A stretch of DNA of 39,324 nucleotides. Origin: Planctomycetota bacterium. GTDB lineage: Bacteria > Planctomycetota > Planctomycetia > Pirellulales > Lacipirellulaceae. The position numbers and the translations under genes were made by a program. How positions within the stretch are numbered: the first letter of the stretch is position 1; each line of letters begins with the position of its first letter. The DNA is taken from NCBI GenBank assembly GCA_024276705.1, contig JAJRWS010000174.1, positions 1-39,324 on the forward strand, written 5' to 3'. This document shows positions 14,680 through 39,122 of the stretch, piece by piece. The notes under the pieces were generated by a model. It saw only the letters and a program-made list of their open reading frames with translations. It was not told the DNA's origin and did not search any database.

Positions 14680-17600
14680 TTACTCGCGCCATAGGCGTTC
14701 CGGGGAAAACCGATTCGATGCCAGGTCCGCATCGTCTGCCAAGGCGATGTCGCGGGCATTTGCCTCGTGGCTGCGTGACAGGTGAGTTGCCAGTTGGCGG
14801 TACGAATGGGTTTCATGGCCTGCATGCCAGTCTCCTGGCAACCAGCGCGGGGCGGTTCGCGAGAGGTCTCGCGGGAACCATCGCTGAAAAACTTCATCGG
14901 CAGCAGCGCGGTGCGCGTCGATTTGCAAGGATTTGGCTTCGAGGCCGTTCAGCCAGGCCAATGCGTTTTGTTCGACGAGAACGTCTGTCGCTGAAAAGTC
15001 TTGGGTTCCCGCGCGGTCGGAACTGGCAGGCTCGGTCGCCAGCAAGGCTACCAGGGCCTCCCCTTCTCTGGCCAGGACGATGCTCTGGGTGGGCGTTGTG
15101 CCGACCGCCAACTGCCAGGCCAGAAAATCTCCCCCATCGACATCGCCATCACTGCTTGCATCGCCCTCCGAGGATAAGGCTCCAGAGTCGACACCAAAAT
15201 TGACTTGCCATCGAACCAGATCCGATTCACCTGCTGCCGGTTCGGCCAGTGCCGAGGCGGTCTGCGCGGCGATGGTCGTGTCGAAGGCAGCCTGCCATGC
15301 ACTCAGGTCGTTCTCGTCGACCGTGCCGTCGGCATTGGCATCGCCATCGGTCAGACTGGCTTCGGTACCGCCATAGCCTCGCTGCCAGGCCAGAAAATCA
15401 AAACCGTCGACATCGCCATCGCTATCGAAGTCAGCCGTTTCCTGGACGTTCTGATCGTTCGGGTCAGGCACCGACTGTCGGGCTACCGGAGGATCGAAGT
15501 TGCCAACAATCGGCTGCGACCGCTCATCGCCAAACTCGGCGAATAGATCGTTGCCAAAAGGTACCGGTTCGAATGGATGATTCAGGGTATTGACACTGCC
15601 AGTGATGCGAATACCCGCACCACCAGGAGCGATAAAATCGCCGGAGAGGAGGAAGTACCATTCGGCCACGCCCTGAGGTAACGATGCGCTGTCACGCGGT
15701 ACCCACAGGCCGATATCGTCGATACCATCTTGATCCATGTCCGCCGCGACAGGTCGATCGAGGACTCCGGGGAAGCCCCAAATGAAGGTGTCGTCGAGAT
15801 CCCCATCGAGGTCGTCCATCCCGAAGCCATCGGCAGCCAGGTCGAACGTGAAGGTGTTATTGTTGAAAACGGCCAGATCGTCCAGTCCGTCCCCGTCGAA
15901 ATCGCCGACGATCGGCAGTCCCAGCAACGTGCCGTCGACTCGCGTGTCGTCGCCATTCGTTTCGATCATGAAATCCCGGTCGGTGTCCAACAACCAGGTG
16001 CCAAAATTGTAAAGAACCACTTCATCGCCGTTGTCGGCATTGCCGTCGAAGTTACCCGCTAGCGGGATCGCACCAGCCACATTGAAATCCTCTAGTTCAG
16101 GTTGCAGTGTGAGGATGTCGCCTGCAACCGGATTGACAACCCCATCGCTGTTGGTGTCGATAATCCAGCGGAATCCATCCAGTTCCGCCGAATTGCCATA
16201 AGCGGCCAACTGATCGAACCAGCGCTCACCATTCGCCCCACCATTCTCACCGTTCGGTTCTTCGAACGGAACGAATTGACCCGCGAACAACAAATCGTGA
16301 ACATTGAATCCCCCCTGACCAATGGAACCGTCGGGATTGGCGACCGGCAACGTGAAGGCAAGATCGACGTTCGTCGTGTCGTTGCCAATCTGCCCATTCG
16401 CCGGGTCCCAGACAAAGTTGCCATTGATGTCCAGATCGATATCTTGCGAAACATAGGAGCCGATTTCAGGCCGTGTATCGATGGTGAACCGGGCCTCAAA
16501 AAGGCCCCCCGGCAAACCGTCGCCACTGGGGAAGAGAGGATCTTCCAGCGGCTCCTCCGCGTTCGATTCGCCGTCGAGCCGATTGCCGACCGGGTCGACC
16601 AGGTTGTCGGAGATCGTCAACGTGAACCGGTCGTCGGGCAACGGAGCGACGAAGGTGAGGATGATGCTGGCGCTCGCCGGTGCCCCGTCGACCACGGGCG
16701 CGGCTGCGATCGCGACCGTGTCGATGGCGATCACTCCCACATGATCGCCCACCAGCAGGTAATTGCCCGGGTTGGTGGCGATATCGGCTTTCAGGGCGTC
16801 GTACAAGAAATCGGGCCCAAGCCGGTTCGGCTGGTCGACAAAGTCAATCGTGATGCTGGAGACCAGCGGCGTGGGACCGTTCTCTGCAGGTTTGGGATCG
16901 AACAGGTCGTAAGCGGGAGTGTCGGTCACGGTAACATCGAGTACCTGTGGACCCTGAGTGTCGATGAAGAGTTCCAATACCTGCAGTCCGTCAGCCACCC
17001 CGTCATCGGGCAAGTTCACGTTGCCCGCCACATCCTCAGCCGATACCAGCAATTGCCGCAACCCGTCGCGACTGGCGAACAGGCTGGGGTCGTTCAGGTC
17101 GACCACCGACGTCAGTTCCCAGAAGCCTTGCGGTTCGGCCAGATTGCCATCCAGGGGGATGCTCACGGTCTCGCCCAGCAGCGGGTCGTCCGGGTCGATG
17201 GTCCCATTCTGATCAAGATCGGCGTAGACCTTGATGATTGCGTCGGCTTCCGCCTGACCTAACAGGTGCGGCGTGGTGTCGCTGGTGATCCGGTCGGTGA
17301 AGGTCATCGGCATCGTCAACACACCCGTGTCGCTGTCGTCAGCCAGCCCATCGCTGTCGGTGGGGATGCCGAAATTCACTGACGGGACAATCGTATCGAG
17401 GGTCAGCTGCAGCGGCAGTGATAGCTCGGCCCGGCCCAGTACGGCCGGATCGGCCGGATCGCGCAGCCAGAGAGCCGTGCTGATGAAATTGTTGTCTCCT
17501 TCGTTCAGGTCGCCGGAGGTCGCCGTAAAACGCCACAAGTTGTCACTGACGTAAAATGCGTAGCCAATGGAAGAGCCGTTGTTGAATACCTCCACCCCGT

Positions 17601-20600
17601 AGTCGAAACCAATCGTGGGCTGATCGTCGTCGTTCGTGTCGGGCTGCAGATCGAGATTGGTGAACTCGTCCATCCGGTCATCATCCAAGACGATGTCAAA
17701 AACCGATGCGCCATGCAGGTTGGCGTCGAAGAAAGTACTATCGTCGGTATTGTTCCGGCCGCTGTCGGTGGCCGCTTGCAAGTCGACCACCTGGGGGATT
17801 GGAGCTGGTACATTGAGCACCGTGAAGTTGTAGACATTCACTGCCGAAGCCGTAGCGCCCACAACTCGCATCGTGTAGGTTTCGTTCCGCACCACCGGAA
17901 TTGCCACCTGCCTGCCAATCGTGTTGCCGGCCGGATCGATGAGAGGCGTTCCCGTGCCGATCGATGCAGGCAGACCATCGGAGTCGTAGAGTTCCACATT
18001 CAACGCGCCGTCGCCTGGCAAGCCGGGCCGGCCATTTGCCAGAGTCGACACTTCGTCGAAATAGACCTGAAAATCGAGAGTCCCCGTTTCAGCCGCCACG
18101 AACTTGTAGAAGTCGTTATCGCCGGGGATGTTGAATAAGTCGATGCCGCCCGGGTCGATGGTCGGGTCGACATTGACGCTTGCTCCCGCGCCAAGGAAGG
18201 TGGCGGCCGGCAGCGTGTTGTTGCTTTCGAAGGGGTCGTTCTTGAAAATCACCAGTCGGCCCAGGCCATCGCTGCCGGTGCCGGCCGTGATCGGGTTGAT
18301 CGGAGTGACATACACAGACTCGATTTGAGAATAGGTGATCGGCGCCAAACTGCCGACCGTGATGCTGCCGCTCTGTCCGTCCGTTCCCAAGCGTTGGATG
18401 ACGGTGTCGCCCAGCCCTTCGTCGACCACCGCCAGAATATCGCTGGCGTTGGGGGGGCCGCCCACGATTTCCACCGGCAGGCTGCCAGCCAGCAGATCGG
18501 CATGGCGTGCCTGGATGATGTCGTCGCCACTGCCCAGCTCCACCACGATGCGTTCCATGTCGGAGATCTGGTCGGTTCGCACATTGCCGTTGAAGGTGGT
18601 CTGCAGCGTATTGCCAGCGGATTGGAACAGGTCGACCGTGTCGTTGCCGCTAGTGCCGGCCAGGAAAATCGTGTCGAGGCCCGGGCCACCACCGAGCGTG
18701 TTGTCGCCACTGCCGCCCCGAAGCTGGTCGTCTCCCTCGCTGCCGTCGAGCAGGTCGCCGCCGGCGCCACCGAGCAGCAGGTCGTTGCCTTCGTTGCCAA
18801 TGAGGGTCAAGGGCGTGTCGACTAGAATGGCGCTGCCATCGATCGTGTCGTTGCCCGGGCCACCAAGAACCTGAACCGAACCGAACGTCGTCGCGCTGGA
18901 ATCCGGCAGGGCGAGCAGATTGACAATATCTTCCCCATCGTCGCCCAACACTTGGAGCTGAATCAGATCAGTGGGCAAATTGGCGTTGTCCAGTACGACC
19001 ACGTCGTCGCCATTTTCCGTGTCGATTGTCACCACGCCTTTGGCCGTGAAATGAATCGGTTCGAAGGCGTCGACGGTGATCCGTCCCCAGTCCACACCCA
19101 TCAGGTCGCTCTGGTCGTAAGTGATCTGGTTGTCTTCGTGCAGCAGACTGCCGATCAGGGCGCCGTCGATATCGAGCGATCCGACGGGCACGTTCGTGAG
19201 GATCGGCTCCAGATTCTCAAACTCGACCACTTGGGTACCCGTGGGGCCGAGGATCGTGTCGATGCCGGAACCGACCGTTGCCCCGACGGTGATGGTTTCG
19301 CTGGTCTGCAAGTCGCCATCGGTCTGCGAGAGCTGAAGTTGGTCGTCTCCCAAGCCACCGTCGTAGCGGATGCCCATGTCGACGGTCACCAGACCGTTCG
19401 TGCTATCGACAATCAGCGTGTCGTTGCCGCCCAAGCCGTTGACGTTGATTTGTTGAATCGTGTCGAGCTGCAGGGGACTTTCGGCCACTTCCACGCCATT
19501 GACAATAACTTGCAACAGGAGCGGATTGTTGGCGGCACGAACCAGGCGTATGGTGTCGTCCTGGCCGGCAAAATCCATATCGCCATCGATCTGCAAAACG
19601 CCTTTGTCGAAAATGACATCCTGGACATTGCTGAGCGACCAGGCACCCCGGCCCAATGTGCCGGCGACCAGAAAATCGTCGCCTGCGTCATAATCCAGAT
19701 CCGAGACGGGCGCATTGGGCAGGCCCATGCCCAATTCGGACCACATCCCCAACGCCCCGCTGAGCATACGGTGGACGCCGCTGGCTCCACCGACCAGGAT
19801 AGCGTCCGCAATGCCGTTGGTTACGATCTCAACGGTACGCAGCAGCGTGTCGGTCAGGTCTCCGGTAATGTTGGCCCAGTTCGTGCCGGCATTGCTGGTC
19901 TGGTACACCCGCGTGCCATCGGTCGCATAAGCGACGGACCAATCGTCCGGATGCATCTTGACCGCCTGAATGTTGTTCGCTCCGGCCAGTGGCCCGGTGG
20001 CGATGAGAGGGCCGCCCGAGGCGGTCCGTAAAAAGACCTGGCTGCCCGAACCGATGTACAGTACGTCCGGGTTGGCAGCGCCCCCCTGCATACCGCCATA
20101 ATCGACCGGGCTGCCGTCTCGATCGCCGCCCCCGGCCGCGTTGACCCCAATACCAGGGCCAATTTCGGTCAGGTTGTCACCCCGGTCGAGCGATTCGTAA
20201 GTGGAGTTCGAACCGCCAATGATCAACCGGTCGGAGGCGACATTGTTGGTGACCACGGGAGTGACGAATTGCACACCGATGGGATTCCCTCCGGCCAGAA
20301 TGTTCAGGGCCGGAGTCACCGCCGCGCCGACCTGGGAGTTGGCTGCGTCGAAAACCCGGCGGCGGAACGTTCCCAGGTTTTGTGTGTTGGTATAACGGAG
20401 AGACTGACCACCGCCGATCAGGGCGTCGACCGCCACGTCGCCCCCGTCGGCCGTCGACACGCTATCCCAGGTGAAACCGCCGGGAGAAATCTGTTCCGGG
20501 GTCCCCGTGTCCTGGGCGCCCCCCAGGATGATGCCCGAGATCGGATCGTAGGCGATGTCGTGGAACTCGGCTGTCTGCAGATTCCCCATCAACGAAAACC

Positions 20601-22314
20601 AGTCGCCCGTGTTGTCGCCCGGGCTTGAACGCCGGTAGATGCCACCGTCGTCGGTTTCGATGAGATCACCCGCGGCATCAAAGACCATTTCCCGAGAATC
20701 CGCATGGGGGGCTGAACCACTGGCCGTGCCTCCTCCCGCGAAGCCAGCATTTTGGTCATCGGTCAGATGTTCCCATTGGGGCGAAAACTCGTTGGTGGGA
20801 TCACCTGGTGCCACGGGGGCGATCGAAGCGTCGCCGCGGAACAAACGGCCACTGGAGGTGACCGCGCCGATGGCGTTGGGAGCCGCGTCCTGGCGGTCCC
20901 CACCGATGTAGACCGTGCCGTCATCGGCCGGGTCGACCAGGATGGAAAAATGTATCCCCCCCTGCCCTCCCGGCTTTTCTCTCGGGCTCAGCCCCACCAA
21001 TTGCTGATAGGAACCGCCCCCCGCATACTCGCCATTAGGCACGGCCCCGTCGAGAATGAAGCCATCGCTAGAGGTCAACGGACCGTTGCCATCAGGGTCC
21101 GTCGCAGTGATGGTAAACTCCCCATTGGCTGCCGTATTGCCAGTGACTCCGGTGACGCGTACCCGCTGGCCATTATTGATGCCATGCCCGACCGAAGTGA
21201 CGATGATTTGCCCGGGTGCGGTCGATAGGGAACTGACGTTACCCACCGCGACAACCCCTTCCAGGGAGACGGGCAGATCCATCTGCGCCCAGTTGCCACC
21301 CAGGTTGTCGCTGTAACCGATGTAGGACGGCCGGCCCGAATCGACCACACCGACGAAAATGCGCCCCGAAATCGGTGAAACGGCCATTTCGATGTTGTTG
21401 TTACTACCGGTCTGGATGGCTGCTTCGAGCCCAGCGGGATCGTTCTGCGATACGTTGGTCCAATCGGTTCCATCGTTGTCGGAACGGAACAGGCCGATAT
21501 CGTCAACCGATACGTAGAGCCGGGAGTTCAGCGTCGGATCGACAACCAGATCGAATGCAGCGCCCGCGGAGAGATTGCCCGTGCCAGAGATGAAACCGAA
21601 GGTCTCCCCACCGTCGGTACTTTGGTAGACCCCTCCGCTCGTACCACCACCAAAATTATTGGCCGAAACAACGATGAGATCACCCCGGGCATAAACGCCC
21701 GATATGTTTCTGCCTGCCAGGTCGTCGACTCCCAGCGGATTCCACGTATCGCCCCCGTCGGTGGTCCGCAACAATCCGTTGAGAGGTCCCCCAATTCGGG
21801 ACCAACTACTAAAATGTCCGATCCCCGCCACGATCGTCTGGCTGGTGAGGTCCGCGTCGTCAAAGGCCATGGCTCCAATTGAAAGCGAACCGAACTGATC
21901 GAGCAGTGGTTCCCAAGTTGGTCCACCACCGCTGGTGGCATCGGTGGTCCGCCAGATGCCGCCATTGGCCGCACCCAGAAAGAGCGTGTCGGCATCGGTG
22001 GGGTCCGCCAACACCGTATGGATGGCGCCGGTCACCGGATCGTCTCCCAGTGGACTGGGAGAAGCGACGTTGCGGACCTGGCCGTCGAGTGTAGGACCAG
22101 GGCCTTCGGCCACCCAGTCAGGAATACCACTGATAGCGACCGACAGCATGCAGCGATCTTCCAGCGACTCGACCGCCAGCCGGCGGTTCAAGTTTCCTTT
22201 GGCTTGCAGTATTCGATCGAGGGAACGGGCTCCCCAAAATGTTCGCTTGCCACGCACCGTGGATTGCGATTGGTGACTTGACTTCCAACCTGTGCGCTGA
22301 GAGACAAAAAACAT
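14680..22314 (-). CDS. Giant multidomain exported protein (BNR/WD-like propeller, RTX-like, PPC, FG-GAP and dockerin-like repeats)
   Basis: The product is about 2,544 residues. The ATG at 22314 has AAGGTG six bases upstream; GTG 22323 and ATG 22320 are alternatives. The first 60 residues carry the planctomycete giant-protein motif LAVESLEDRCMLS. Residues about 90-900 resemble BNR/sortilin-type propellers (IHTVLADPTDADTLFLGAAN, GGIWRTTD, TTDGGDTWNPLG and similar). About 905-1150 is N-G-L-G-G-N-D-rich. About 1155-1235 holds hemolysin-type Ca-binding repeats (GNEGNDLLLGGAGGDLLDGS). About 1362-1505 is a bacterial pre-peptidase C-terminal-like domain (DPFESNN, DNDFYKFVAAETGTLDFQVY). About 1510-1800 is Ig/cadherin-like. 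About 2080-2225 has FG-GAP-like GDFDGDGLDDLAVF and DMDQDGIDDIGLW. About 2290-2400 has three dockerin-type Ca loops (DFDSDGDVDGFDFLAWQ, DANADGTVDENDLSAWQ, DASSDGDVDGGDFLAWQ). The 120-residue tail is unlike a known sorting signal. A surface adhesion or scaffold role is an inference. Confidence 0.9.
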   Translation of the reverse strand: MFFVSQRTGWKSSHQSQSTVRGKRTFWGARSLDRILQAKGNLNRRLAVESLEDRCMLSVAISGIPDWVAEGPGPTLDGQVRNVASPSPLGDDPVTGAIHTVLADPTDADTLFLGAANGGIWRTTDATSGGGPTWEPLLDQFGSLSIGAMAFDDADLTSQTIVAGIGHFSSWSRIGGPLNGLLRTTDGGDTWNPLGVDDLAGRNISGVYARGDLIVVSANNFGGGTSGGVYQSTDGGETFGFISGTGNLSAGAAFDLVVDPTLNSRLYVSVDDIGLFRSDNDGTDWTNVSQNDPAGLEAAIQTGSNNNIEMAVSPISGRIFVGVVDSGRPSYIGYSDNLGGNWAQMDLPVSLEGVVAVGNVSSLSTAPGQIIVTSVGHGINNGQRVRVTGVTGNTAANGEFTITATDPDGNGPLTSSDGFILDGAVPNGEYAGGGSYQQLVGLSPREKPGGQGGIHFSILVDPADDGTVYIGGDRQDAAPNAIGAVTSSGRLFRGDASIAPVAPGDPTNEFSPQWEHLTDDQNAGFAGGGTASGSAPHADSREMVFDAAGDLIETDDGGIYRRSSPGDNTGDWFSLMGNLQTAEFHDIAYDPISGIILGGAQDTGTPEQISPGGFTWDSVSTADGGDVAVDALIGGGQSLRYTNTQNLGTFRRRVFDAANSQVGAAVTPALNILAGGNPIGVQFVTPVVTNNVASDRLIIGGSNSTYESLDRGDNLTEIGPGIGVNAAGGGDRDGSPVDYGGMQGGAANPDVLYIGSGSQVFLRTASGGPLIATGPLAGANNIQAVKMHPDDWSVAYATDGTRVYQTSNAGTNWANITGDLTDTLLRTVEIVTNGIADAILVGGASGVHRMLSGALGMWSELGMGLPNAPVSDLDYDAGDDFLVAGTLGRGAWSLSNVQDVIFDKGVLQIDGDMDFAGQDDTIRLVRAANNPLLLQVIVNGVEVAESPLQLDTIQQINVNGLGGNDTLIVDSTNGLVTVDMGIRYDGGLGDDQLQLSQTDGDLQTSETITVGATVGSGIDTILGPTGTQVVEFENLEPILTNVPVGSLDIDGALIGSLLHEDNQITYDQSDLMGVDWGRITVDAFEPIHFTAKGVVTIDTENGDDVVVLDNANLPTDLIQLQVLGDDGEDIVNLLALPDSSATTFGSVQVLGGPGNDTIDGSAILVDTPLTLIGNEGNDLLLGGAGGDLLDGSEGDDQLRGGSGDNTLGGGPGLDTIFLAGTSGNDTVDLFQSAGNTLQTTFNGNVRTDQISDMERIVVELGSGDDIIQARHADLLAGSLPVEIVGGPPNASDILAVVDEGLGDTVIQRLGTDGQSGSITVGSLAPITYSQIESVYVTPINPITAGTGSDGLGRLVIFKNDPFESNNTLPAATFLGAGASVNVDPTIDPGGIDLFNIPGDNDFYKFVAAETGTLDFQVYFDEVSTLANGRPGLPGDGALNVELYDSDGLPASIGTGTPLIDPAGNTIGRQVAIPVVRNETYTMRVVGATASAVNVYNFTVLNVPAPIPQVVDLQAATDSGRNNTDDSTFFDANLHGASVFDIVLDDDRMDEFTNLDLQPDTNDDDQPTIGFDYGVEVFNNGSSIGYAFYVSDNLWRFTATSGDLNEGDNNFISTALWLRDPADPAVLGRAELSLPLQLTLDTIVPSVNFGIPTDSDGLADDSDTGVLTMPMTFTDRITSDTTPHLLGQAEADAIIKVYADLDQNGTIDPDDPLLGETVSIPLDGNLAEPQGFWELTSVVDLNDPSLFASRDGLRQLLVSAEDVAGNVNLPDDGVADGLQVLELFIDTQGPQVLDVTVTDTPAYDLFDPKPAENGPTPLVSSITIDFVDQPNRLGPDFLYDALKADIATNPGNYLLVGDHVGVIAIDTVAIAAAPVVDGAPASASIILTFVAPLPDDRFTLTISDNLVDPVGNRLDGESNAEEPLEDPLFPSGDGLPGGLFEARFTIDTRPEIGSYVSQDIDLDINGNFVWDPANGQIGNDTTNVDLAFTLPVANPDGSIGQGGFNVHDLLFAGQFVPFEEPNGENGGANGERWFDQLAAYGNSAELDGFRWIIDTNSDGVVNPVAGDILTLQPELEDFNVAGAIPLAGNFDGNADNGDEVVLYNFGTWLLDTDRDFMIETNGDDTRVDGTLLGLPIVGDFDGDGLDDLAVFNNNTFTFDLAADGFGMDDLDGDLDDTFIWGFPGVLDRPVAADMDQDGIDDIGLWVPRDSASLPQGVAEWYFLLSGDFIAPGGAGIRITGSVNTLNHPFEPVPFGNDLFAEFGDERSQPIVGNFDPPVARQSVPDPNDQNVQETADFDSDGDVDGFDFLAWQRGYGGTEASLTDGDANADGTVDENDLSAWQAAFDTTIAAQTASALAEPAAGESDLVRWQVNFGVDSGALSSEGDASSDGDVDGGDFLAWQLAVGTTPTQSIVLAREGEALVALLATEPASSDRAGTQDFSATDVLVEQNALAWLNGLEAKSLQIDAHRAAADEVFQRWFPRDLSRTAPRWLPGDWHAGHETHSYRQLATHLSRSHEANARDIALADDADLASNRFSPERLWRE

Positions 22315-22706
22315 GACCATCACCTTGGCTTGATTAACAGAAATTTCGCGGAAGGAATATCAGGATGCTGCTCTGTCTGTCACCGTGCGGGCCAAAGCTG
22401 GTCTGAAACGAAGGACCAAGCCGGAGCAAAAACCGCCTTGCCTGGGGTCACTGGGTTGAGGGGCATGACCATCGAATGCGCCAGGCATCAAGACTTCGAG
22501 CTACGGTGATTGATCGTAATCGAATAAAGTAGGATGATCAAGTATTTTATGCCGGATAGGATAAATAGGAAGGTCGTGAGACGATGGAGCCTGTGCTGGC
22601 CGGACAGGTAGCTTAATGAAAAAAGGCCGACCCGGGGGGTCGGCCTTTCGCCTGAATTTATCACAATATTGTGCATTGAAACTTACGATGACAGATAGCG
22701 AAGTCC
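22315..22706. other. Spacer between the giant gene and the outer-membrane gene
   Basis: About 390 bp that must hold the giant gene's promoter and does hold the terminator at 22619-22648. No gene is visible. The stretch 22510-22580 is A/T-rich, but I cannot fix a -35/-10 pair. Confidence 0.5.
22619..22648 (-). terminator. Rho-independent terminator of the outer-membrane protein gene
   Basis: On the minus strand AAAGGCCGACCC and GGGTCGGCCTTT form a perfect 12-bp stem around a 3-nt loop (22622-22648). The stem runs into a six-base T-run (22624-22619). It lies about 60 bases after the stop of the outer-membrane protein gene. Confidence 0.9.
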
Positions 22707-32555: not shown

Positions 32556-32971
32556 GACGGGCAACGCTTCGATTGCTTTTTGGGGACGACCTATCTCGAC
32601 AATGCCACTTTGAGGCAGAACCTCCGATAATACAAGGTGTTTTGGTTCTGTGTGCCCGCACGCTGGGGTACGAAGGGCGTGGGCTATGCGTGAATAGACC
32701 ACGCCTATCGCCGGATGGGACGTGCCACACTCTCTATATTAAGCTTTGCCAGACCTCTAGGTTGACCAATAGAAATGCGACAGCCTTGATTGTGCAGGTT
32801 TTAACCGTTCCTACGCCTCGCTATTTCGGGCAAACCAAAGTCAAGGCTTCTAGCCGTGGCCGTTTAATCCAAAGATGGGAGAACTGACCGTGGATTAAGA
32901 TTAAGATTAAGATTAAGAAACGGGAAATAATGGTCTTATGTCGCGAACGCTTACAACCAGGCCTATCCAGC
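32556..32971. other. Divergent spacer with a GATTAA hexamer repeat
   Basis: About 415 bp with no credible gene. A hairpin with 7-bp arms GGCGTGG/CCACGCC (32676-32705) and four copies of GATTAA (32893-32916) are visible. The upstream in-frame extension of each neighbouring gene into this spacer is judged non-coding. Confidence 0.5.
32893..32916 (+). repeat. GATTAA hexamer tandem repeat
   Basis: Four perfect copies of GATTAA lie 56 bp before the chosen ATG of the URO-D-like gene. A 6-nt unit also occurs as GTGGGA at 5120-5143. It could vary in number and alter the spacing of an upstream promoter. Confidence 0.9.
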
Positions 32972-34081
32972 ATGTCGTCCACGTTAAATCAGCTTCCGGG
33001 TGCCAGGCCGTTGAAGTATTTCATTCCCCTGGCCGCGCCACCCTGGCGACTGCCGGTGGAAGGCGACGAGCCCTTCATGCGGCCGGAGATCGGTTTTACA
33101 CCCGCCTGGTTCCATAAGTATTGCGACATCGATTTCTCCGAGCGTTGGCACCACGACCCGGACTACCGGCTGGAATCGCATGAAAAAATGCAGGCCGAAG
33201 TCCGTCGCCGCTTCCCGGGTCATGACATCGGCCGTGTGTTGCGGGCGGAGCCGCCTGACCTGCTCAGTGGACTGTTTGGCACTTGCCTGATGCCGCACTT
33301 GTTCGGTCAGCGGTTGCAATACTTTGCCGATCAATGGCCGGCCGGAAAAGACCACCCTTACGCAGATTCCACCAAGGCCGATGCGTTGGAACCGCTCGAT
33401 CTGGATGCGCATCCCCGTTTTCAAGACATCCTGAGGCAGTGCGACCTAATCGAAAGGCTGACCGGCGGCCTGTTTGGACAATGCAATTGGCAGGGCGTGC
33501 TCAATACGGCTTTCCGCATTCGCGGCCAGCAGATCTTTCTCGACATGATCGAATCCCCCCAGCGGGCCCACCACCTCTTCCAGTGCATCACCACGACAAT
33601 GGTGGACGGCATCAAGAAATTGTATCAGCGCCAACGGCGGGCCGGCATCGACTACCAGTTCGGTTCCACGGCCAACTGCGTCGTGAACATGGTCAGCCGT
33701 GCTATGTACGAGGAGCACATGCTGCCGTTCGACCTGCAATTGCGGGCGGAGTTCGTAAGTTTCGGTCTGCACAACTGCGCCTGGATTGTCGATCCGTACA
33801 TGGAGCCGTATGCCACCATCCCGGCGCTTGGCTACATCGACATGGGCCTCACCTCCGACCTCAAGAAGGCTAAACGGCTTTTTCCCGATGCCCGCCGGAC
33901 CGTGCTTTACACAGCCATGGAACTGGCTGAAAAAAACCAGGAAGAAATCCGGGCGGATTTTGCGAAGATCGCCCGAGAATATGCCCCCTGCGATGTCGGC
34001 ATGCCGAACATCGACATCCACATCCCGGACCAGCGGGTCAAGTTCGCGCTCGACCTCTGCCAGGAATTCAGCCGTGGATAG
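32972..34081 (+). CDS. Uroporphyrinogen decarboxylase (URO-D)-superfamily protein
   Basis: The ATG at 32972 gives 369 residues. The sequence fits the URO-D/corrinoid methyltransferase superfamily: an (alpha/beta)8 barrel with GFTPAWFHKYCDIDFSERWH near the N-terminus, LPFDLQLRAEFVSFGLHNCA WIVDPYMEPYATIPALGYID (H-x-C motif about residue 267) and SDLKKAKRLFPDARRTVLYT. The HNC-type element resembles the metal or thiol site of MtaA/MtbA-like methyltransferases rather than haem enzymes. In planctomycetes many such proteins are not in haem pathways, so haem synthesis is not implied. True substrate unknown. The Tat aldo/keto reductase begins 146 bp downstream in the same direction and could share its transcript. 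Confidence 0.75.
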   Translation: MSSTLNQLPGARPLKYFIPLAAPPWRLPVEGDEPFMRPEIGFTPAWFHKYCDIDFSERWHHDPDYRLESHEKMQAEVRRRFPGHDIGRVLRAEPPDLLSGLFGTCLMPHLFGQRLQYFADQWPAGKDHPYADSTKADALEPLDLDAHPRFQDILRQCDLIERLTGGLFGQCNWQGVLNTAFRIRGQQIFLDMIESPQRAHHLFQCITTTMVDGIKKLYQRQRRAGIDYQFGSTANCVVNMVSRAMYEEHMLPFDLQLRAEFVSFGLHNCAWIVDPYMEPYATIPALGYIDMGLTSDLKKAKRLFPDARRTVLYTAMELAEKNQEEIRADFAKIAREYAPCDVGMPNIDIHIPDQRVKFALDLCQEFSRG

Positions 34082-34226: not shown

Positions 34227-35288
34227 ATGGCTAGTGGCGAGAATACCCGGCGACAGTTCATCAAGGTCACCTCGGCGGCCATGGCTGCCGGCACCATCGG
34301 CTCGCTGGCCAAAGCCGACGAAATACCGGTCGATACCTCGAAGATCCTGAATTACAACCCCAAGATGAAGTATCGCCGGCTGGGCAAGACCGGCCTGATG
34401 ATCTCGGAGATCAGTCTGGGCGGACACGGTTGGCGCAGTCCCGAAGACCGCGTTCCGGTGCTACAACGGGCGGCCGAGTTGGGCATGAACTATCTCGACA
34501 CCAACACGGTGGATGAGAATGTGATTTATGGCAAAGCGATGACCGGCAAGACCCGCGGCGCCAGCGCCAAGGAGTGGCACATCGGGTTCGCTTCGTGGCC
34601 CACCAAGGTAACCGAAGAATACGAGGAGCATCTTTCCAAGGAACGATTCCTGGGCGAGATCGACGACCGGTTGAAAACCTACCACACCGATGTGCTCGAC
34701 ATGTGGCGGCCGGTCGGGGCAACCTGGGGCGAAGGCCAGAAAAAGATTTCGAGCATGCTGATGGTCAGCCACCGTGTGCTGGACATGGTGGTTGAGGTAT
34801 TCGAGAAGGTCCAAAAGCAGGGCAAGGTCCGTTTTCTGGGTATCTCGGCGCACAACCCCAAGGTTTTCCGCCGCGTGCTCAACGAATACCCACAGTTCTC
34901 GGTCATTATTTTCCCTTATCTGTTTCTGACCAAGGAATTCGGCGGCGACAGCCTGTTGAAACTGGCACAGGAAAAGGACGTTGGGGTGATTGGCCTGAAA
35001 CCGTTCGGAGCCGGTACCACGTTCGGACTCAGGCCGCAACAGATCAAAGGCAAGGTGGATACGCGGGCGCATGTGCTGGTTAAGGAAATGCTCCAGGAGC
35101 CGCGACTGACGGCAATCATTCCGGGTGTGAACATCCCGGAACAACTCGAGGAGAATGTCCAGGGTTCCTACGAGCGCGACAAGCCCCACACGGACGAAGA
35201 CAAGGAAGCCCTCCGCCAGTGCACCAAAAACTACTACGCTCACCTGACTCCCGAGTACCAATGGCTGCGCAACTGGGAAGTCGTCTGA
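34227..35288 (+). CDS. Tat-exported aldo/keto reductase-like protein with degenerate catalytic tetrad
   Basis: The ATG at 34227 (GGGAG 8 bases upstream) gives 353 residues. A twin-arginine signal (TRRQFIKVTSAAMAAGTIGS) precedes the AKR barrel: MKYRRLGKTGLMISEISLGG, LGMNYLDTNTVDENVIYGKA, FLGEIDDRLKTYHTDVLDMW, KVQKQGKVRFLGISAHNPKV and GVIGLKPFGAGTTFG. The aspartate (LDTN) and a lysine (SWPTKV) of the AKR tetrad are kept. The usual tyrosine is D in DTNTVD, and the usual histidine position in DVLDMWRP is not His. Normal NADPH-dependent carbonyl reduction therefore looks doubtful. The C-terminus QCTKNYYAHLTPEYQWLRNW is helical. The stop overlaps the start of a tetraheme cytochrome (TGATG), so the two proteins are coupled and both exported. 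Confidence 0.87.
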   Translation: MASGENTRRQFIKVTSAAMAAGTIGSLAKADEIPVDTSKILNYNPKMKYRRLGKTGLMISEISLGGHGWRSPEDRVPVLQRAAELGMNYLDTNTVDENVIYGKAMTGKTRGASAKEWHIGFASWPTKVTEEYEEHLSKERFLGEIDDRLKTYHTDVLDMWRPVGATWGEGQKKISSMLMVSHRVLDMVVEVFEKVQKQGKVRFLGISAHNPKVFRRVLNEYPQFSVIIFPYLFLTKEFGGDSLLKLAQEKDVGVIGLKPFGAGTTFGLRPQQIKGKVDTRAHVLVKEMLQEPRLTAIIPGVNIPEQLEENVQGSYERDKPHTDEDKEALRQCTKNYYAHLTPEYQWLRNWEVV

Positions 35289-35827
35289 TGGGCGTTTTTC
35301 TTTCGGTGAGAATTGGGGTCGTGGTGGTGTTTCTGCTCGGGGTCGATTGTTGCCTGCGCGGGACGACAACGGACGCATGGGCGAAAGAAGATACCGTCAG
35401 GGCAATACCGAAAGCTGAAACCAGCAGTGGCGTTAAAACTGACGTCAAGGACAAAACGAAGGCAGAAGACACATCCGACCAGAGCCTGATGGATCCACTG
35501 GGCGCCAACGCGGCCTGCTATGTCTGTCACATGACGTACGTCAAAGAGGAGTTGAGTAAAATCCACCTCAAGGAGAAAATCGGTTGCATCAAGTGCCACG
35601 GCACCAGCGCTGGCCACGCAAACGACGAGAATATTGGTGCGACCAAACCCGACGTGACGTTCCAGCGCAAACAAGTCAATACTTCCTGCCGAGAATGCCA
35701 CTCAGGCCATGATGCCGCCCCCGAGGTGGTGATCGCCAGCTGGATCGATTTAGGTTCACCCAAAAAGTCGCCCATCTGTACCGATTGCCACGGCAAACAC
35801 CGAATTGAGAAAGCCGCTGAAAAATAA
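35288..35827 (+). CDS. Periplasmic tetraheme c-type cytochrome
   Basis: The 179-residue protein has an N-terminal hydrophobic segment (VRIGVVVVFLLGVDCCL) that acts as signal or anchor, a Lys/Asp-rich linker (residues about 32-66), and four haem c-binding motifs: CYVCH at 77-81, CIKCH at 100-104, CRECH at 134-138 and CTDCH at 164-168. Extra histidines (HMTYV, KIHLKEK, SGHAND, GHDAAP, GKHRIE) could be distal ligands. This layout fits small multihaem electron carriers of the NapC/cytochrome c7 or cytochrome c nitrite reductase-partner kind, though no close family is certain. Its start overlaps the stop of the AKR-like gene by one base (TGATG), which implies translational coupling and a shared role as a redox pair outside the cytoplasm. 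Confidence 0.88.
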   Translation: MGVFLSVRIGVVVVFLLGVDCCLRGTTTDAWAKEDTVRAIPKAETSSGVKTDVKDKTKAEDTSDQSLMDPLGANAACYVCHMTYVKEELSKIHLKEKIGCIKCHGTSAGHANDENIGATKPDVTFQRKQVNTSCRECHSGHDAAPEVVIASWIDLGSPKKSPICTDCHGKHRIEKAAEK

Positions 35828-36477: not shown

Positions 36478-37815
36478 ATGCCAAACTCCCAGCCACAGAA
36501 AGACAATACCACGCGCCGACAATTCCTTCAGTCCACCTCGGTGGTGATGGCTACCGGAGCCTTGGCGGGAGGCTTAGCACGCACCGTGCATGCGGCCGGG
36601 GATGAGACCATCCGTATTGCTCTGGTTGGCTGTGGCGGGCGTGGAACGGGTGCCGCCATGCAGGCGCTCAGCACTTCCGGACCGGTGAAACTGGTCGCGA
36701 TGGCCGACGCTTTTAAGGACCGGCTTCAAAGCAGCCTGCAGACGATTGCCGCCAAGCATAGCAAGCAAGTGGATGTGCCCGATGAAAAGCAGTTCGTCGG
36801 TTTCGACGCCTACCAGAAAGCCATCGCCGCCGATGTCGATATGGTCATCCTGGCAACGCCTCCCGGATTTCGACCTCTGCATTTTGCCGCGGCCGTCGAG
36901 GCAGGCAAACACATCTTCATGGAAAAACCGGTCGCCGTCGACGCCCCGGGCATCCGAACCGTCTTGAAAGCGGCCGAGGTTTCCAAACAAAAGAATCTCT
37001 GCGTCGGCGTGGGGTTACAGCGTCATCACCAGCCGGTCTACATCGAAACGATCAAGCGTCTGCAGGATGGAGAGATTGGCGACATCCAGGGGACACGCGT
37101 CTATTGGAATATGGGCCTGCTGTGGGTCAAGAAGCGAGCCGATCTGGAAAAACAGGCTGGACGTAAATTGTCCGAACTGGAATACCAGATGCGCAACTGG
37201 TATTACTTCAACTGGCTCTGTGGCGACCATATTACCGAGCAGCATATCCACAATCTCGATGTGAGCAACTGGCTCAAAGGTGCCTACCCGGTCAAGGCCC
37301 AGGGAATGGGAGGCCGGCAAGTCCGGACAGGGCCCGACTCGGGGCAAATTTTCGATCATCATGCGGTGGAATTCACCTATGAGGATGGAATGACGATGGC
37401 CAGTCAGTGCCGTCACATGCATGGTTGCTGGAATAGCGTTTCCGAGCATGCGTTGGGAACACGCGGGTCCTCGAATATCGGCAAGGGCCGCATCGTGGGC
37501 ACGGAGACCTGGCGTTATCGGGGCAAGAATACCAAAAGCCCCTATCAAATTGAGCATGACGATCTGTTTGCCGCCATCCGCAGCAATACGCCATACAACG
37601 AGGCGGAGAATGGCGCCAAAAGCACCATGACTTCCATCCTTGGGCGGATGGCCACCTATTCGGGAAAAGTGGTGCAATGGAAAGATGCGATCGCCTCGAA
37701 TCTGTCCCTTGCGGACACGGCCAGCCTGCACGGGTTTGACGACCAGGCACCGGTCACTCCCGACGCCGAGGGACGTTACCCCATCGCGATCCCAGGGGTG
37801 ACAAAAGTCATCTGA
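36478..37815 (+). CDS. Tat-exported Gfo/Idh/MocA-family oxidoreductase
   Basis: The 445-residue protein starts at an ATG preceded by AGAGGA. The Tat signal is TTRRQFLQSTSVVMATGALA ending about residue 40. The Rossmann fold follows: IRIALVGCGGRGTGAA (47-60), ADVDMVILATPPGFRPLHFA and GKHIFMEKPVAVD (E149-K150-P151, the conserved catalytic lysine in EKP). The second domain contains YYFNWLCGDHITEQHIHNLD VSNWL, with the histidines of the G-D-H...H-x-x-D pattern typical of this family. It would bind NAD(P) tightly and act on sugars or inositols outside the cytoplasm, like many planctomycete relatives and glucose-fructose oxidoreductase. Substrate unknown. It is a single gene: the preceding cytochrome is 650 bp away and the next gene is convergent. 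Confidence 0.93.
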   Translation: MPNSQPQKDNTTRRQFLQSTSVVMATGALAGGLARTVHAAGDETIRIALVGCGGRGTGAAMQALSTSGPVKLVAMADAFKDRLQSSLQTIAAKHSKQVDVPDEKQFVGFDAYQKAIAADVDMVILATPPGFRPLHFAAAVEAGKHIFMEKPVAVDAPGIRTVLKAAEVSKQKNLCVGVGLQRHHQPVYIETIKRLQDGEIGDIQGTRVYWNMGLLWVKKRADLEKQAGRKLSELEYQMRNWYYFNWLCGDHITEQHIHNLDVSNWLKGAYPVKAQGMGGRQVRTGPDSGQIFDHHAVEFTYEDGMTMASQCRHMHGCWNSVSEHALGTRGSSNIGKGRIVGTETWRYRGKNTKSPYQIEHDDLFAAIRSNTPYNEAENGAKSTMTSILGRMATYSGKVVQWKDAIASNLSLADTASLHGFDDQAPVTPDAEGRYPIAIPGVTKVI

Positions 37816-37928: not shown

Positions 37929-39122
37929 CTACGGTGGTGGGATTCGCGGCGGGGACAGGTCGTTCCGGTCCGGAGCGCGGAATACGGTGCTGCGCACCTG
38001 TGGAAAGTGTTGGCGCAGCAGATTTTCGTAAGCACCGGTGGGCATGAGCGTGCCAATCGTTGCCAGAGGATCGGTCAAGGCACCCCGTGGCCCAATCACC
38101 ACGCACATCCGGCGTGAGGAGGTACCCAGGCCGGTGTGCGGATCGATCACGTGGCTGGTTCGATGCCCTTGCCGCTCGAAGAACTGAACCGTATCGCCCG
38201 AGACACTCACAGCGCAGTTGGCCAGCCGCACAGTTTTGGGAGAATTTTCAGGGACCGAAGATTTCCCCTGGGCGGGCGGCTGGCCGATCACGACAGGCTT
38301 GGTATCGACGGGGGCGTTGATAAGGGGGCCAATATCGACGGGCCCGATGTCGACAGGCCAGCCCGACGCACCGGGAGGCGGATCGCCCAGCACCATGTCG
38401 CCACCCGCTTCGAATGTTGCCCGCTGAATCCCCTGCTCCGCAAGTACCCGCAGGGCTTCGTCTCCCGCAAAACCTTTGGCGATACTGCCCAGATCGAGCA
38501 GCATGCCTGGTTGAACCAGCTCCACCGTTTGCTGCGCGAGATCCAATCGCATGTTTCGATAATTGACCAAACGGCGGGCAGCAGCCAGGTCGGCCGGTTC
38601 CACACCGGTGCGGCGGGCGACGCGCCACCGGCGCGTGACCGGACCGATGGTCGGATCGTAGAGGCCACCGGTCCATTCGGCCAATTGCCAGGCCGAGGCG
38701 AGTACTTGGAACAGTTCCGTGCTGACCGCGACGGGCCCCTGGCCAGCCTGGCGACAGAGACGCGACAGTTCGCTATCGGGCTGGTAGTCCGAAAAGATCT
38801 GGTTCAATTCGCGGATGCGTTGAAAAGCGATTTTCGCGGCTTGCTGTCCCGACTCCCGACTGGAAGCCCACAACGTCAAATCGACCATCATACCCATCTG
38901 GAACTGGGAAACGCGCACCCGCTGAAGTGTTTTCGTCTGTCCAGGAGATCGGTCTGGCATGTCCGACCGGTTTACGGGCCGCGGCGGAACGGACGCTCTC
39001 GCAGACACGGGCTCCCCGGCCGGGACTGCACCCGCCAGCCCCCCACGTATGCAGACTCCGCAGAGCAGGGTCAGGATGCAGGTCAAAGGCCAATTGGTGG
39101 GACCAGGGTGCATTAGGTGCAT
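37929..39122 (-). CDS. apbE: Exported ApbE-type FAD:protein FMN transferase
   Basis: This 397-residue protein attaches FMN to threonine of partner proteins, using FAD and Mg2+. Family motifs: QMGMMVDLTLWA, LNQIFSDYQPDSELSRL, GGLYDPTIGPV, LLDLGSIAKGFAGDEAL (209-224), FEAGGDMVLGDPPPG (238-251), TSHVIDPHTG (321-330), and ALTDPLATIGTLMPTG (D351, T355 Mg2+ ligand area). An N-terminal leader (WPLTCILTLLCGVC) indicates export. There is an uncommon Pro/Val/Asp-rich insertion at about 254-300 with the repeat VDIGPVDIGP. The start is ATG 39122 or ATG 39113, in a tandem repeat ATGCACCTA. No ribosome site is evident, and a dispersed repeat block begins only 9 bases upstream. A flavinylated target is not obvious nearby. 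Confidence 0.9.
   Translation of the reverse strand: MHLMHPGPTNWPLTCILTLLCGVCIRGGLAGAVPAGEPVSARASVPPRPVNRSDMPDRSPGQTKTLQRVRVSQFQMGMMVDLTLWASSRESGQQAAKIAFQRIRELNQIFSDYQPDSELSRLCRQAGQGPVAVSTELFQVLASAWQLAEWTGGLYDPTIGPVTRRWRVARRTGVEPADLAAARRLVNYRNMRLDLAQQTVELVQPGMLLDLGSIAKGFAGDEALRVLAEQGIQRATFEAGGDMVLGDPPPGASGWPVDIGPVDIGPLINAPVDTKPVVIGQPPAQGKSSVPENSPKTVRLANCAVSVSGDTVQFFERQGHRTSHVIDPHTGLGTSSRRMCVVIGPRGALTDPLATIGTLMPTGAYENLLRQHFPQVRSTVFRAPDRNDLSPPRIPPP

Follow-up and report, generated by a model that had tools for sequence, protein, structure and literature searches.

Aldo/keto reductases (AKRs) are defined by a single catalytic tetrad, Asp-Tyr-Lys-His, together with NAD(P)H, and a Gln anchors the nicotinamide in these enzymes. 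The solved members of the superfamily (PF00248) nearest to the protein considered here are AKR11C1 (1ynp), AKR14A1 (4aub/3n6q) and L-galactose dehydrogenases (7ezi, 7svq). A two-gene operon joining a Tat-exported substrate subunit with a PF14537 multihaem cytochrome is known from Eggerthella lenta, where it encodes Cgr1-Cgr2 (PMC5953540). The substrates of PF06439 proteins are 3-ketoglycosides; the 3-ketotrehalose hydrolase BT2157 is one such protein, and others adjoin the periplasmic lactose 3-dehydrogenase LacABC (PMC9007349). Finally, PSCyt1-3 are c-type cytochromes typical of Planctomycetes and Verrucomicrobia that occur near sulfatases and carbohydrate-binding domains (Laminin_G_3) (PMC5615132). 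A pair formed by an AKR and a tetrahaem cytochrome was not found described in the literature searched, in which subscription journals were mostly outside coverage.

Such a pair is present in the window, the whole 39,324-nt stretch of DNA that was analyzed, which derives from a planctomycetal MAG that is 85% complete. Its main features are:

34227..35288, + strand: Tat-exported aldo/keto-reductase-fold protein of a tetrad-less family, 353 aa (ORF, Pfam, AlphaFold2, Foldseek)
34227..34316, + strand: twin-arginine signal peptide, AKR residues 1-30 (TRRQFIK ... LAKA; sequence, PF10518 / TIGR01409)
35286..35290, + strand: TGATG, where the AKR stop overlaps the start of the cytochrome, whose ATG is 35288-35290 (sequence)
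35288..35827, + strand: tetrahaem cytochrome c, 179 aa, with N-terminal signal/anchor, linker, four CxxCH and eight His (Pfam, motif count)

The AKR frame runs from an ATG at 34227 to a TGA stop at 35286-35288, and the TGATG overlap by which an earlier sequence-only reading had tied the two genes together is exact in its coordinates. The exported AKR-like protein of that reading is likewise borne out, both by the twin-arginine signal (MASGENTRRQFIK...LAKA, with the cleavage site placed by eye; Pfam TAT_signal E 0.003, NCBIfam TAT_signal_seq above cut-off) and by the PF00248 barrel match (E 1.5e-15). The AlphaFold2 model (pLDDT 84.7) had AKRs as all 50 of its best 50 Foldseek matches. Solved AKRs are matched in barrel fold (Foldseek TM 0.6-0.7), in profile (E 1e-18) and in the tetrad Asp, whereas the family lacks their Tyr, Lys and His as well as their nicotinamide Gln, and differs further in Tat export, in a co-occurring cytochrome, and in a C-terminus of its own (Y-x-WL-x-x-WEYV).

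Catalytic residue positions were assigned by aligning the window AKR to 40 other AKRs from related genomes and by profile alignment to AKR11C1 from the PDB, as follows:

34497..34517, + strand: D91-E97, with D91 the retained tetrad Asp, D96 the Tyr position and E97 invariant in 112 family members (alignments)
34593..34595, + strand: S123, the tetrad Lys position (alignments)
34704..34715, + strand: W160-R161-P162-V163, with V163 the tetrad His position and R161 invariant in 112 members (alignments)
34851..34853, + strand: H209, invariant in 112 members and present also in the nearest tetrad-bearing AKRs (alignments)
34998..35000, + strand: K258 (GLKPF), invariant in 112 members (alignment)

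Asp91 is thus the sole survivor of the tetrad. The sequence-only reading had counted two losses, Tyr and His; both are real, and the count falls one short since the Lys (S123) is lost too. It had also placed an Asp at the Tyr position, which holds (the Tyr-bearing loop is about 4 residues shorter and the Tyr aligns to D96), and a Trp at the His position, which does not, as V163 aligns there with W160-R161 immediately ahead of it. With three tetrad residues gone, its view that the protein is not a standard carbonyl-reducing AKR is upheld. The nicotinamide-anchoring Gln, part of QMP in relatives, is F229 in the window AKR and Thr, Phe or Met across the tetrad-less family, and the C-terminal loop IPG...N is partly retained.

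These losses characterize the whole family. A profile scan of contigs from 84,980 species yielded 342 related AKR-like loci, and the best 80 of these, the most similar, were retained; hosts among those best 80 were Planctomycetota, Verrucomicrobiota, Kiritimatiellae, two Bryobacterales MAGs and a few oddly labelled bins. Family members were separated from general Tat AKRs by profile score (at least about 290 bits versus about 100 bits), and in the tree they were monophyletic with support 0.976 on a long branch. Among 112 aligned members the substitutions could be followed site by site, as the earlier reading had proposed: Y occurred in none at the Tyr position (E, Q, A, G and others instead) and H in none at the His column (T, S, V, Q or M). 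The Lys-to-Ser motif was matched by pattern in 106 of the 112, the remaining six having a local sequence variant with no Lys at the site in those inspected. Invariant throughout were D91, E97, R161, H209, K258 and G300. Pfam recognised PF00248 in 82 of 83 members and no flavin or Fe-S domain in the barrel of any of the 83.

The closest relatives found were Tat-exported planctomycetal AKRs with a QMP/GHKD signature (for example L045-L053 and L002, the latter located in the window's own genome), which share the GHKD and MKP motifs with the family but differ in having the full D-Y-K-H tetrad. All of the 20 nearest AKRs with the QMP signature have Tyr and His, and a pattern match finds Lys in 19 of them; no haem gene was found in the flanks (about 1.5 kb) of 40 outgroup AKR loci. 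An outgroup with the tetrad and without the cytochrome is consistent with loss of the tetrad in a cytochrome-linked clade. A Tat-like signal was present in 16 of these 20 tetrad-bearing relatives, so that the signal of the family was probably inherited; the earlier suggestion that Tat export points to a cofactor bound before export is correspondingly weakened, and Tat was set aside as proof of a cofactor.

The two genes were found together well outside the window. In a phylum sample of 246 genomes both families occurred in the same 7 and no genome held only one of them (Fisher 1e-13, or 4e-12 with the window genome excluded, values that kinship among genomes makes a guide only), and in a class sample of 398 genomes the 6 with the cytochrome were the 6 with family-level AKR scores (Fisher 2e-13, again only a guide given kinship). 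In genomes picked for holding the AKR, the cytochrome was present in 17 of 19, the only exceptions being two Bryobacterales MAGs in which the cytochrome family was not found. A cytochrome was counted as downstream when it had at least three CxxCH and its first haem began no more than 900 nt past the AKR. On this count, 62 of 100 family AKRs had a cytochrome directly downstream, 3 had one upstream, 9 were followed by another family AKR, 23 had no adjacent cytochrome and 3 stood at a contig end; members lacking an adjacent cytochrome lacked the tetrad as well. Spacing differed among loci, with the TGATG overlap one of several arrangements. Hosts of both families were almost all uncultured MAGs in which copy counts vary with thresholds, and within these counts G582 held eight AKRs and eight cytochromes forming eight adjacent pairs, contig by contig, while G052 held two of each. 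Tandem family AKRs were seen at L071, L135, L144, L138, L140, L114 and L119, several sharing one downstream cytochrome. Distances among AKRs and among cytochromes were correlated (Mantel r 0.66, with 2000 of 2000 permutations below 0.29), a correlation to which shared ancestry contributes. Because the two deepest clades of the AKR tree, the window's among them, both have cytochromes, the association is probably ancestral. The AKR and the cytochrome are a genuine exported pair conserved well beyond the window; the sequence-only reading, which had tied them as a pair and had named failure to co-occur elsewhere as grounds for abandoning the idea, is sustained by their presence in other genomes.

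These observations leave little room for the view that the AKR is an ordinary NAD(P)H-dependent enzyme whose catalytic residues have been exchanged and that the cytochrome lies next to it by chance, an explanation we consider very improbable. The PF00248 fold, the retained Asp and the partial C-terminal loop would fit it, but the tetrad is gone in a whole clade together with the nicotinamide Gln, and the exact genome-level co-occurrence, with adjacency across phyla, speaks strongly against chance adjacency, which was rejected.

The cytochrome of the window matched PF14537 (E 9e-8, over the cut-off), and its haem motifs are:

35516..35530, + strand: haem motif 1, CYVCH (motif count)
35585..35599, + strand: haem motif 2, CIKCH (motif count)
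35687..35701, + strand: haem motif 3, CRECH (motif count)
35777..35791, + strand: haem motif 4, CTDCH (motif count)

It has exactly eight His, four within CxxCH and four candidate distal ligands, as four bis-His haems would need. Across 48 cytochromes seven His columns were invariant and the eighth was displaced or absent in part of the members. An AlphaFold2 model built without haems reached pLDDT 72, too weak for fold matching; it had no PDB fold match, and the profile search gave weak matches only. In many members the cytochrome is anchored or lipidated at the membrane. An acidic-leucine motif (LLLDEP or LSLEGxLDEKLP) recurs between membrane anchor and haem domain, for example at L096, L087, L128 and L144; the LLLDEP type was present in 28 of 62 cytochromes versus 0.7 in shuffles, a post hoc count that serves as a lead only, and it is possible that this is a docking motif. 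PSCyt1-3 are alike in being c-type cytochromes, but they differ in domain architecture, reach their highest reported abundance in epilimnion genomes and have no reported pairing with an AKR barrel (PMC5615132).

Fusions and neighbours bear on the likely substrate. Four cytochromes beside a family AKR were fused to PF06439, the 3-keto-disaccharide hydrolase domain (L208, L209 and L210 in G582, L214 in G568), with E-values between 1.6e-10 and 1e-7 that each exceed the cut-off, and at L219 a DUF1080-like gene, recognised by eye, lies between AKR and cytochrome and beside a GH32 gene. Compared with 40 control stretches from only two host genomes, xylose-isomerase-like barrels (EPI4 and EPI5 clusters) were about 10 times and Gfo/Idh genes about 3 times commoner near the pair; the near set had served to train the neighbour HMMs, which makes these ratios upper estimates. 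Enrichment of sulfatases, LamG, ThuA and DUF1080 fell short of significance against the same 40 stretches; sulfatases are true neighbours, yet show no excess over background, and a sulfatase link was rejected. In the window itself the Gfo/Idh type is represented outside the core by:

36478..37815, + strand: Tat-exported Gfo/Idh/MocA oxidoreductase, of a type enriched near pairs elsewhere (Pfam, neighbour counts)

Beyond this gene, at a distance of roughly 2 kb from the pair, is an ApbE flavin transferase gene (37929-39122, - strand); flavinylation of the pair by ApbE was considered and set aside, Pfam having shown no FMN-binding domain in either protein. The gene ending 145 nt upstream of the AKR on the same strand (32930-34081, + strand) matches URO-D weakly and below threshold, and elsewhere a single ORF of 2547 aa occupies 14680-22323 (- strand). 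The URO-D-like, Gfo/Idh and ApbE neighbours in the window point to no particular substrate. The fusions and the enriched sugar-isomerase and Gfo/Idh neighbours nevertheless suggest exported carbohydrate redox chemistry, which, with the PF06439 literature, makes this the leading idea; a sugar or glycoside would be the most likely substrate, with 3-keto-glycoside chemistry the leading candidate. A link of glycoside oxidation to a PF06439 protein, putative in this family, is known for the periplasmic LacABC with its DUF1080 hydrolase, but an AKR barrel and a PF14537 cytochrome are not among the LacABC components as described in the parts of the source drawn on here (PMC9007349).

One alternative could be a respiratory reductase, in which electrons would pass from quinol through the tetrahaem cytochrome to the barrel, where an organic acceptor from outside would be reduced; Cgr1/Cgr2 and further exported pairs of a reductase and a tetrahaem protein work in this manner. 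Cgr1/Cgr2 share PF14537 and the two-gene layout with a Tat-exported partner, but their catalytic fold is different, Cgr2 being a FAD/[4Fe-4S] fumarate-reductase-type flavoprotein where the partner in this family is an AKR barrel (PMC5953540). Expanded AKR/cytochrome paralogues would also fit, as would L207:2452-3453, in which a NapC/NirT quinol-dehydrogenase domain is fused to the family tetrahaem domain and adjoins a family AKR. Set against this, a search of eight host genomes turned up NapC/NirT in just one, so that it was rejected as a general electron donor, the barrel has no flavin or Fe-S domain that Pfam recognises, and catabolism suits the carbohydrate neighbours at least equally. We regard this explanation as unlikely.

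Alternatively, the barrel may not be a redox protein, the AKR fold acting as a scaffold or as a subunit for sugar binding, isomerisation or elimination while the cytochrome serves another enzyme of the assembly, for example a Tat-exported Gfo/Idh or a 3-keto-glycoside enzyme. The missing Tyr, Lys, His and nicotinamide Gln, an invariant polar pocket with no known cofactor site, and Gfo/Idh and AP_endonuc_2 barrels nearby are all consistent with this, as is the absence from the barrel of any recognisable two-electron cofactor. However, the cytochrome was the commonest company of the AKR (66 of 87 loci versus 23 of 87 for Gfo/Idh). Since no other gene was seen beside the AKR so frequently, the simplest assumption is that the cytochrome works with the AKR; a non-redox barrel appears rather improbable to us.

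Our preferred reading, to which we assign a probability of roughly 0.45, is that the pair is an exported two-component redox module likely acting on a sugar or glycoside, in which the barrel handles the substrate and the cytochrome is an electron partner dedicated to it. The barrel would have descended from an NAD(P)H-dependent AKR, lost its machinery for hydride transfer with nicotinamide, and become a subunit that binds and probably converts the substrate, in a newly acquired, conserved polar pocket of D91, E97, R161, H209 and K258. The tetrahaem cytochrome at the membrane would form a complex with it, exchange electrons with it and connect it to the quinone/cytochrome pool, and paralogous pairs of one genome would take different substrates. 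Oxidation is slightly favoured as the direction, since the neighbours are sugar genes, with the NapC/NirT fusion favouring reduction. With a two-electron cofactor missing, direct sugar oxidation by bis-His haems is still without a chemical mechanism. The 23 of 100 AKRs that have no cytochrome beside them, the two Bryobacterales MAGs lacking the cytochrome family, the small control set behind the neighbour ratios and the uninformative neighbours in the window also weigh against this reading.

A wider proposal, tentative and on the doubtful side, is that these proteins form a nicotinamide-free class of exported oxidoreductases in Planctomycetota and Verrucomicrobiota, in which a tetrad-less barrel and the tetrahaem cytochrome dedicated to it swap electrons directly and glycosides are oxidised (or reduced) outside the cytoplasm. 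If true, sugar redox chemistry outside the cytoplasm would proceed without nicotinamide, by a new route. It would assign a function to genes now annotated merely as aldo/keto reductases and tetrahaem cytochromes, the AKR-like loci matched numbering 342, and would offer a prediction on how uncultured bacteria that degrade polysaccharides, many of which come from sediments and stratified waters, get rid of electrons.
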